From NCBI RefSeq assembly GCF_040183065.1, contig NC_091127.1, positions 26,710,391 to 26,774,390 on the forward strand: a DNA stretch of 64,000 nt, read 5' to 3'. The notes below the pieces were generated by a model. It was not told the DNA's origin. It ran no database searches and worked only from the letters and a program-made list of their open reading frames with translations. Shown here in pieces: positions 34,001-37,000 of this stretch. Position 1 is the first letter of the stretch. Each line of letters starts with the position of its first letter. Both the position numbers and the translations under genes were made by a program. This DNA comes from Periplaneta americana (taxonomy: Eukaryota; Arthropoda; Insecta; Blattodea; Blattidae).

Positions 34001-37000
34001 CTATTGACATGTTCGCTCATAAGCCATTAACATATTGTTTTTATGCTGTGCTCATTACAAACAATACAGCAGAACTAAAGCAGAACACACCGCCATGACA
34101 CAACAGTGCACGATGTCATTCGTCTGCTAATTCCCGCCCTATACAAGAACCAATCAGATTCATTGATGGTGGCTGATGGAGACTGCCACCACCTCTGCAA
34201 GCTGATGGCACTGGTGGAGCATCAGTGATGCCATCGGTGAAATTCGGAACACCGTGATGCCATCAGATTGCTCAGTGCTGAGATTCGGAATACACTCAAA
34301 GCAACCATTGTATAAATTAGATCTATTGAAATTCTCCAAATAACAATATTTTGTTAACACACTTACTGTTTTCTTGTATAGTAGTAATACCATTTTAAGA
34401 GGATGTTAAGTATGAACAAAGATACTTCATCAAAATATAAGTTGCACGAGGAAAAAATGACAACACAATTCCTTAGGCATTATAAGAAACTTACAGGAGA
34501 AAAGCCCTACGATTCGAACTATTGCCTTTTGTGAAGGAAAAGAGAACTGTGGATGCAAAACTTGCGCTGGTATACCCATTGTTACAAATAACGATGTCCA
34601 AAGTTCAGGCTGTAAAGTCTTTATTGGAAGATGACAGATGCTGATGTGTGGAACTCTCAAAGGAAGTTAGTACTGCAACATCTTCTATAGATACATTTTA
34701 GTAAAGTACTGTAGTTGACTTTCATATTGGCCTGAGCAAGTGAATGGTGACACCTAAAATCATGATACTCACGAAGATGCCATGCAATGCAAAATTCTTT
34801 TGAAAGTAATTGTTATTGTGTCTTATAATTATGAAGACATAATTCTTGTGCATTATATCGAGAGGAGTTCAAAAAAGATGGGGTAGATAAAATGTACCAC
34901 CTTCCAAGGATTTGGCAAATGATGTTGACATGGCAGAGGTATTTTAAGTGTATAATGTCAAAACTTTCTTTAACTAGTGGCGGGTACTTGATTTTTCTTC
35001 ATTCACTCATATGAAGCCAGTTGTGCAGACCAATTTACCGACACAGTTGTTTCCCAAGGTGAGCCATAGGAGGCTAGTGTACGGTAAACCTGCCATAAGA
35101 TGAGATGAGTTGTTGGAATGCCACAGGGGAACCGGAACTCCTGGAGAAAGCTCATGTTACCTGGACCACAGGCTTGTCCAACACAAGTTATAAATTGGGA
35201 TCGAATTCGGGTCCACAGGATAAGTCCAACATTCTAATCACTAAACCATCATGGCGACATAATGTTGAAAGTTAAGCTAAGTAAATTTATATTTAAAGAT
35301 GAAACACACATGTTGGGTCAATTACACAGTGTTCATAGATTTGATAAGAAACATTAAAGATTATATATTACAGTTATATGAACACTAATAAATATAATAT
35401 AATTATTAAAGAAATTAGTAATACACATGTTTCAGAGATGCTTCTCCATCTTCAGTGACTATTTACCACGACGGATGGTTCGGGTGATCGAACCGCGTCT
35501 CCTTTAAGCCAAGTAACAACGCGGTTCGATCACCCGAACCATCCGTCATGGTAAATAGTCACTGAAGATGGAGAAGCATCTCCGAAACATGTCTGACTAT
35601 TACTAATTTCTTTAATAATTATATTATATTTATTAGGTTCATATAACTGTAATATATGATCTTTAATGTTTCTTAAGTAAATTTAGTTAGTAACAATAAG
35701 TGTTCTCATTACTTTTTGAATGTCCTAGTACAGCAGTTCCCAATCTTGGTCTTCAGACCTGTAGGAGTGATTTGAAAGGTATCTGCGGAAACAGTTATCA
35801 GTTATGTTTTCAAATGGTATTTTAACTTTATAATTTTCTAATTTTTCTCAGATTGCTGAAATATCCCCTCCTTCCAAATAAATTGTATTAAATTAAATAT
35901 ATCTCTGACATTTTGAGTGATATGTTTGTGCAACTATTATTAATTATTAGGCGATACATCTCACTTGACCATAATGTAACAAGGGAAGAAATAATTTCGC
36001 TGACATTATCACCTTCATCTCACTCAGACACTAGAGTAGTAACTTAGGTTATTTTACAACGCTTCATCAACATCTTAGGTTATTTAGCGTCTGAATGAGA
36101 TGAAGGTGATAATGCCGGTGAAATGAGTCCGGGGTCCAACACCTTAAGTTACCCAGCATTTGCCCATATTAGGTTGAGGGAAAACCCCGGAAAAAACCTC
36201 AACCAGGTAACTTGTCCCGACCGGGAATCGAACCAGACGCTAGATAATCATCGTATTTGATAAAGCGTCGTAAAATAGCGCAAAAAAAAAAAGAATAATT
36301 GCTTGTACACATAAAGTCTGATTAGTAAAATATGTTATTTCTTATTAGTCAGCGATCTATGCAATGGAGGTGGAAGAGGAAATGGCCACCTTGGTGGCTG
36401 GTATGCATCAAATCGGGTTTTTTGGTAGGTTATTTAGCGTCTGAATGATATGAAGGTGATAATGCCAGTGAAGTGAGTCCGGGATCCAGGACCGAAAGTT
36501 ACCCAGTATTTGCTCAACCAGTTAACTTGCCCCGACCGGGAATCGAACCCGAGCCACCTGGTTTCGCGGCCAGACGCGCTAACCTCTACTCCACAGATGT
36601 GGACTAGAATCGGTTCTTACTTCTTCACATTATAACGATACCATTTCTCGATCTGCACTAAAGAACACGATCCCTGACAGACTACAGTAGGAAACACTAG
36701 ATAGGTCTAATTAACTATAAACATGAGTTCCTATGGAGAATTGTCCCAGGTAGTAATGTTCCGTTGGCTTAGGCCCGTAACACACTTGAAGAATTTTCGC
36801 TAGCGAGAAATGTGTTGCGAGAAAGAGGCGAAGAGCCTTCCTCCACACACTTGGCGAGTTCTCGCTATCACAGATCACACCTCGCTATGATCATCTATGC
36901 ACTGTCTTCATGCAGAAAGCATTTTTCTGATTATAGTAATCACTCGTTGGGGGAAATATTATAGGTTATGTATTTACGTATATTTTCGTACTTAAATATA

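Follow-up and report, generated by a model that had tools for sequence, protein, structure and literature searches.

A probable non-autonomous Penelope-type insertion composed of two head-to-head hammerhead-bearing units in Periplaneta americana

Penelope-like elements (PLEs) reportedly carry minimal hammerhead ribozymes within their pLTRs, with a type I core and a diminished stem III, a description that is said to go back to Cervera and de la Pena 2014 and Lunse 2017. PLEs are described as a third class of eukaryotic retroelements, and their transposition mechanism is called little known in the cited part of PMC11167929, while a 2020 review termed the role of their hammerheads a mystery in the passage cited here (PMC7761336). 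According to the cited sections of PMC3846280, Pen2a of the rotifer Adineta vaga and its relatives have head-to-head pLTRs with palindromic junctions and a 31-bp tail on one arm, the target duplications of rotifer PLEs measure 8-10 bp, and self-priming on an antisense template has been proposed for rotifer Penelope elements. In Poseidon from Anolis (PAc), the hammerhead is closely followed by two internal RT start sites. These delimit the tail, an optional extension of 30-40 bp that corresponds to the interval between them. In vitro, the Anolis PLE cut and extended both DNA strands at AT-rich targets, and the cited part of this work reports no strand difference in start site (PMC11167929).

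Here we analyze an insertion of 384 bp within a 64-kb stretch of the cockroach genome (64,000 nucleotides, hereafter the window) and its relatives in the same genome. With a probability of about 0.72, we interpret it as a non-autonomous Penelope-type insertion of two head-to-head pLTR-like units with a minimal hammerhead, made by two-strand priming.

The insertion and its hammerhead motifs

Positions 35290-35673 of the window form an insertion that is bounded on both sides by a perfect 12-bp target-site duplication and made up of two near-identical opposed arms, head to head. Both the flanking direct repeat and the inverted-repeat unit had been part of the original prediction and were recovered, the latter as three blocks. 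The features are as follows.

35278-35289, no strand: target-site duplication, left copy TAAGTAAATTTA (direct-repeat comparison)
35290-35344, minus strand: tail, the long outer end of the left arm, without a partner in the right arm, ending in ...ATCTTTAAATA on the minus strand
35345-35498, minus strand: left pLTR-type arm (inverted-repeat and reference-arm alignment)
35416-35463, minus strand: degenerate left-arm hammerhead, with a 4-nt deletion at the cleavage site, C17 to G and a weakened stem II
35499-35518, no strand: head-to-head junction, 20 nt between the paired arms
35519-35673, plus strand: right pLTR-type arm with the short outer end ...AATGTTTCT
35554-35601, plus strand: complete minimal type I hammerhead with one extra U after A9 (fold z, covariance model R1, descriptor)
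35554-35561/35594-35601, plus strand: right-arm stem I, 8 bp
35562-35568, plus strand: right-arm CTGAAGA
35569, plus strand: right-arm extra T (U between A9 and stem II)
35570-35574/35579-35583, plus strand: right-arm stem II
35584-35588, plus strand: right-arm GAAAC, followed by AT
35591-35593, plus strand: right-arm GTC, with predicted cleavage after 35593
35674-35685, no strand: target-site duplication, right copy TAAGTAAATTTA
35425-35498/35519-35592: inverted-repeat block, 97%
35385-35423/35598-35636: inverted-repeat block, 100%
35345-35383/35637-35675: inverted-repeat block, 97%

Arm positions are given on the scale of a reference arm of 238 nt, taken from locus L015, on which the window copy spans 27-238 with its left arm plus tail and 5-184 with its right arm, the tail making the left arm about 53-55 nt longer at its outer end. 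When outer flanks were paired across family loci as a null (1061 combinations), flanking repeats of at least 12 bp arose at a rate of 0.0009. The insertion, which is mostly palindrome, contains no ORF for a telomerase-like RT and GIY-YIG nuclease; the earlier remark that no polymerase is present holds, since all that these short insertions copy is a terminal-repeat-like unit.

The right arm contains the whole type I core (C3 U4 G5 A6 N G8 A9, G12 A13 A14, U16.1 H17, stems I and II), and both direct reading and the descriptor bore out the order of parts, the 8-bp stem I and the one extra U that had been proposed. It departs from the type I rule that stem II directly follows A9, the extra U at 35569 lying between them. 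Stem III consists of 2 bp with a 2-nt loop, which is the minimal PLE kind. The right motif (35549-35606) folds more stably than its shuffles (z -3.07), and the stability of the left motif (35410-35468) is no better than that of shuffles (z -0.10). The left-arm hammerhead departs from type I at H17 and in stem I, and the net difference between the arms is 4 nt, GTCTGACTATTAC to GTGTATTAC (the 4-nt deletion plus C17 to G); the original prediction was right that the left arm has a deletion here, which lies at the cleavage site, but had put its size at about 6 bases. Judging by these changes, the left-arm hammerhead is dead.

A descriptor search of both strands of the window returned 35554-35601 as the sole hammerhead match, and in Markov windows (n=150) the loose descriptor matched 0.067 times on average and two stricter ones not at all. 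The Rfam search that had been suggested earlier gave no hammerhead, neither at E values up to 10 in 35000-36000 nor at the gathering threshold in the whole window. The matches to miRNA families in 35000-36000 fell below the gathering score, lay on the hairpin and were rejected. Viral contigs scanned by exact pattern for two core variants yielded no match.

The predicted fold of a transcript that spans the entire insert is a single long hairpin (-236.8 kcal/mol). This hairpin would pair the hammerhead away, so that the ribozyme of the window copy is predicted to be locked and probably inert; it would act, if at all, in the source RNA.

Several other repeats occur in the window. A tandem array of a 53-bp unit extends from 49552 to about 51600 (some 34 listed copies, core mostly 96-99% alike). 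A 94-nt inverted repeat (63282-63375/63635-63728, 99% complementary) overlaps a tRNA-Ser gene on the minus strand (63342-63415), and a 53-nt inverted repeat (63587-63639/63676-63728) is nested with it. A tRNA-like stretch marks a dispersed repeat, probably a SINE of tRNA origin, with copies at 24363-24619, 36035-36606, 44882-45138, 59279-59538 and 63757-64000. An inverted pair of 54 nt about 1 kb apart (36771-36824/37762-37815, 94% complementary), starting with AGGCCCGTAACACACTTG, resembles the termini of a DNA transposon.

Related hammerheads and the repeat family

A search of the 3.23-Gb genome for GIY-YIG domains gave at least 108 matches, with the best 150 of 7667 candidates scored. By descriptor, hammerheads were found about 1 kb downstream of the GIY-YIG domain in 12 of 20 fetched loci; a looser pattern added four among the same loci, some with core changes. 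Among six added loci, four carried a second family of GIY-YIG-linked hammerheads and a fifth the first family. At one GIY-YIG locus, a stop-free frame of 605 aa matches RVT_1 (E 1.1e-13) and GIY-YIG (E 7.9e-7). These hammerheads share the layout of the window motif, and the extra U between A9 and stem II is common to all three families. The earlier suggestion to look for compensatory changes in stem I was productive at the level of families: across the three, pairing is kept by compensatory changes at pairs 1, 2 and 5 of stem I and at pairs 2, 3, 4 and 5 of stem II, while the outer stem I pairs 7-8 of the window motif are not conserved in all of them.

Covariance model R1 was built from 11 GIY-YIG-linked hammerheads, excluding the window family. 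Its top site in the window was 35554-35601 (19.0 bits, E 0.053), followed by a site of 12.6 bits (E 1.9), and the left-arm motif was absent from its ten matches there. With default filters, R1 reported 16 linked sites in 21 sources and missed the window motif and all six window-family loci included. The support that R1 lends to the window motif is real but modest. The hammerheads of GIY-YIG elements, the first rank under R1 and the compensatory stems nevertheless support the relation to Penelope-like elements that had been proposed. Among the matches scored in the genome, no RT-bearing element with the exact arm of the window was found.

Three DNA queries for the family of the window arm gave at least 71, 60 and 77 matches in the same genome, the best 40 of 1055, 1317 and 1145 candidates being scored, respectively. 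The family analysis covered 68 loci (L009 and L061-L064 were left out), which hold 134 arm pieces and 52 adjacent head-to-head pairs in 51 loci. Outer ends counted as short at reference 172-197 and as long from 222 onwards, limits that were set after the data had been seen; 37 of the 52 pairs are short/long, six are long/long and nine have another end. Among the 29 pairs flanked by a duplication of at least 9 bp, 28 are short/long and none is short/short or long/long, the exception being L075, whose ends lie at reference 198 and in the long class. With a chance of 1/2 per pair, 28 of 28 mixed pairs would have a probability of 3.7e-9, a figure to be read with the post hoc classes in mind. Apart from the short/long pair L059, which has a simple repeat of 20 bp, these 29 pairs have duplications of 9-18 bp. 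In all six long/long pairs, one piece continues past the tail into the sequence that follows in the source, and is therefore not an insertion end. Duplications of at least 9 bp are missing from 23 of the 52 pairs; a second method detected them in 31 of 52, as compared with 3.7% in its null.

The junctions form 47 distinct combinations among the 52 pairs, with the arms meeting within -6 to +5 nt in 37 of them. Since the junctions differ, the pairs represent mostly independent events rather than copies of one palindrome. Of 17 single-arm copies that were checked, two (L051, L070) have a duplication of at least 9 bp at the start of the arm, which suggests that two-strand priming is not obligatory.

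Variants present in exactly two arm pieces fell within one locus in 9 of 81 cases, one of which (L055) spans two neighbouring inserts, whereas 0.58 were expected and the maximum in 1000 random draws was 4. Likewise, seven mutually linked lineage SNPs are rarely discordant within arm pairs; at site 174 the counts are 33/0/7, that is 0 discordant pairs compared with 11.5 expected. These shared variants within insertions suggest that the two arms tend to come from one source, which would fit a single RNA or a pair of RNAs from the same locus; gene conversion from arm to arm could also produce them. The mean arm-to-arm distance is hardly smaller within loci (0.0396) than between them (0.0434), perhaps because the family is young and uniform.

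Some loci show further peculiarities. At L055, two very similar head-to-head inserts (1114-1432 and 2501-2782) lie 1.4 kb apart in the same orientation, possibly through local duplication. At L080, a single arm is split by about 1 kb of other sequence (5-136 and 1134-1242), with reference 104-136 on both sides, as if a later insertion had duplicated 33 bp. Arms at L048, L107 and L111 are joined to the same foreign sequence (TCGACCATGCCGAAATGTAGTAATTATACACC or close variants, on either strand), perhaps another element or a preferred junction. An alternative upstream segment of several hundred bp ends in TTTTGCAG before TCGTGG at L016, L026, L034, L037, L107 and L108; it may be a retained intron, but the fetched loci revealed no 5' splice site.

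In the GIY-YIG family, both ends could be read in four head-to-head inserts (L083, L094, L088/L089 and L098/L099). By eye, each of them pairs a short end (...TCTAAC) with a long one (...GAATTGCAAAAT or a variant close to it), and their flanks show matching target repeats. The anatomy, duplications, short and long ends, varied junctions and shared arm variants were observed in the window family, and the head-to-head pairing of a short with a long end recurs in elements with RT and GIY-YIG domains.

A recurrent deletion and the origin of the palindrome

The original prediction had named random substitutions in both strands of stem I among the copies as an outcome that would speak against it; these were not seen, and one exact 4-nt deletion recurs instead. 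It is present in identical form in 21 of 90 arms that cover the site (possible placements CTGA, TGAC or GACT), while the ten other deletions of at least 2 nt across these arms are all singletons. The arm contains 23 further two-base repeats with equal spacing, and only the one at the cleavage site is hot. Of the nine arms read from a query in the deleted form, seven had the 4-nt deletion, L113 had a longer one at the same place and one was intact; in the search with this query, which is biased to deleted copies, 8 of 41 rows had the size of the deletion.

By deletion status, 39 typed pairs comprised 19 intact/intact, 15 discordant and 5 deleted/deleted; the right arm of L047 was typed automatically as intact and is deleted by eye, which changes the counts to 19/14/6. 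These numbers resemble independent draws (expected 17.3/17.3/4.3). Two of the three family queries were in the deleted form, and the loci of the intact-form query alone gave 14 intact/intact, 7 discordant and 0 deleted/deleted pairs. With L047 excluded, rarer variants are common to both arms in 5 of the 14 discordant pairs (L001, L045, L050, L058 and L075), and the arms of the other 9 share none.

On a tree of 82 arms, the deletion takes 18 changes, compared with a shuffled mean of 18.0 (184 of 300 shuffles at or below). Of eight control SNPs, seven take 1-5 changes compared with 7-11 when shuffled, and the eighth, at site 144, takes 3 compared with 3.0; the controls are linked lineage SNPs, a choice that favours them. 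The lack of signal on the arm tree weakens the idea that the deletion is an inherited subfamily mark, and the SNPs common to the arms of one locus weaken the case that it proves two templates. Among 13 arms with the alternative upstream segment, 0 deletions had been counted early on, which pointed against recurrence, but the deletion was seen in several SNP lineages and with either the usual or the alternative upstream segment.

Taken together, the arm sequences suggest that the deletion probably arises repeatedly during copying across the folded hammerhead. In GIY-YIG-linked hammerheads, a deletion at the cleavage site was found in 0 of 23 cases (19 of one family and 4 of another), which argues against a general effect of the hammerhead fold. 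Since these deletion-free families lack the CT...CT repeat, slippage at the two-base repeat on a folded hammerhead is our preferred candidate for the cause. None of 128 arm pieces starts at the cleavage site (reference 102); eight start between 85 and 125, the nearest being L080 at 104, which is half of the split arm described above. As no arm starts at the cleavage site, these starts do not make a nick in the template more likely than slippage on a folded template. Alternatively, intact and deleted forms may lie next to each other in the sources, as could be the case with tandem units.

For the formation of the head-to-head pairs, we propose that a PLE protein would cut both strands of an AT-rich target and that each cut 3' end would serve as primer for reverse transcription, with RNA from a single source element as template. 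Synthesis on one strand would begin at the inner site and yield the short end, and on the other it would begin about 53 nt further 3' and yield the long end with its tail. The two cDNAs would extend toward the 5' end of the RNA, halting at various points, and their joining would create a palindrome between target duplications. Of these steps, we infer that priming is simultaneous, that a single RNA serves as template and that a PLE protein is the helper. A narrower version, in which two RTs copy a single RNA, each from its own fixed site and for one of the target strands, with the RT repeatedly skipping exactly 4 nt at the scissile phosphate, is tentative and in our estimate has slightly under an even chance of being correct.

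Snap-back self-priming, in which the 3' end of a cDNA folds back and copies itself into a palindrome, is the explanation preferred in the Discussion of PMC3846280, where it is inferred from palindromes at inverted junctions, and arms produced in this way would share variants, as a copy of a copy would. However, it leaves the fixed short site of the second arm (28 of 29 pairs) unexplained and needs a fresh one-arm change in every case in which a single arm carries the deletion (14-15 of 39 typed pairs). We consider self-priming unlikely; the family copies, as far as their sequences can tell, favour two-strand priming at two fixed sites.

It is quite unlikely that the insertion is an animal retrozyme, a small non-autonomous hammerhead element spread via circular RNA from tandem repeats, with the palindrome as a by-product. 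Many animal type I hammerheads do lie in tandem repeats of 150-450 bp, according to the cited part of PMC7229834, and 22 units, each about 149 bp long and containing a hammerhead of the window type, follow one another head to tail at positions 1684-4997 of L009, seemingly in a higher-order pattern, an array that could be retrozyme-like. Nevertheless, the window hammerhead, with a stem III of 2 bp and a 2-nt loop, is a minimal one as in PLEs, the arms are inverted in the window copy and form inverted pairs in 51 of 68 loci, and L009 is the single tandem array seen, with unit junctions unlike those of dispersed copies. A foldback or MITE-type DNA transposon, whose arms would be terminal inverted repeats moved by a transposase and whose hammerhead would be incidental, is most improbable: the long inverted repeats between direct repeats and a length of 384 bp, which leaves no room for a gene of a transposase or polymerase, would suit it, but the termini are asymmetrical, one being about 53 nt longer, the duplication length varies from 9 to 18 bp (leaving out the 20-bp simple repeat), 52 pairs have 47 distinct junctions, single arms (L051, L070) are flanked by duplications, and layout and tail agree with PLEs.

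Comparison with known systems

The many tiny, complete head-to-head insertions in one genome allow start sites, strand pairing, junctions and template origin to be treated statistically, which is beyond the reach of single large elements, and the recurrent lesion at the cleavage site offers a handle on folding or cutting of the ribozyme in the template. If two-site priming and the 4-nt skip are true, the genome would record a hammerhead that was folded (or cut) in the template RNA during retrotransposition, which would bear on how head-to-head PLE copies form and on the role of the hammerhead in vivo. A survey at the level of titles found no paper on a recurrent cleavage-site lesion or on twin priming in Penelope elements, which is not a claim of absence.

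The window motif resembles the minimal hammerheads of PLEs in its type I core, its diminished stem III and its location in pLTRs, and differs in the extra U of three families. The chrysanthemum chlorotic mottle viroid hammerhead, said to have been described by De la Pena and Flores 2001, reportedly has an extra nucleotide at the same place, between A9 and position 10.1, but there it is an A, in a viroid context, and here a U. Animal non-LTR retrozymes, as presented in the cited part of PMC7229834, are likewise small, AT-rich, non-coding units with type I hammerheads, similar to the L009 array, but their hammerheads are canonical with loop contacts, whereas the window motif is of the minimal kind.

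With Poseidon (PAc), as described in the cited sections of PMC11167929, the family shares a hammerhead by the tail and AT-rich targets; here, however, each insertion has one of each end. As no strand difference is reported there for the Anolis PLE in vitro, an obligate pairing of short and long ends is not predicted from that system. Closest in layout are the Pen2a-type PLEs of Adineta vaga, which, going by the cited parts of PMC3846280, also have inverted pLTRs head to head, a tail on one arm and short target duplications. In contrast to these, the whole insertion here is pLTR-like only and exists in many copies, the pairing of a short with a long end could be counted over tens of them, and the arms share variants. 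To the knowledge of PLEs our analysis would thus add that, in the copies compared, short/long pairing appears close to obligatory in head-to-head insertions of two families.
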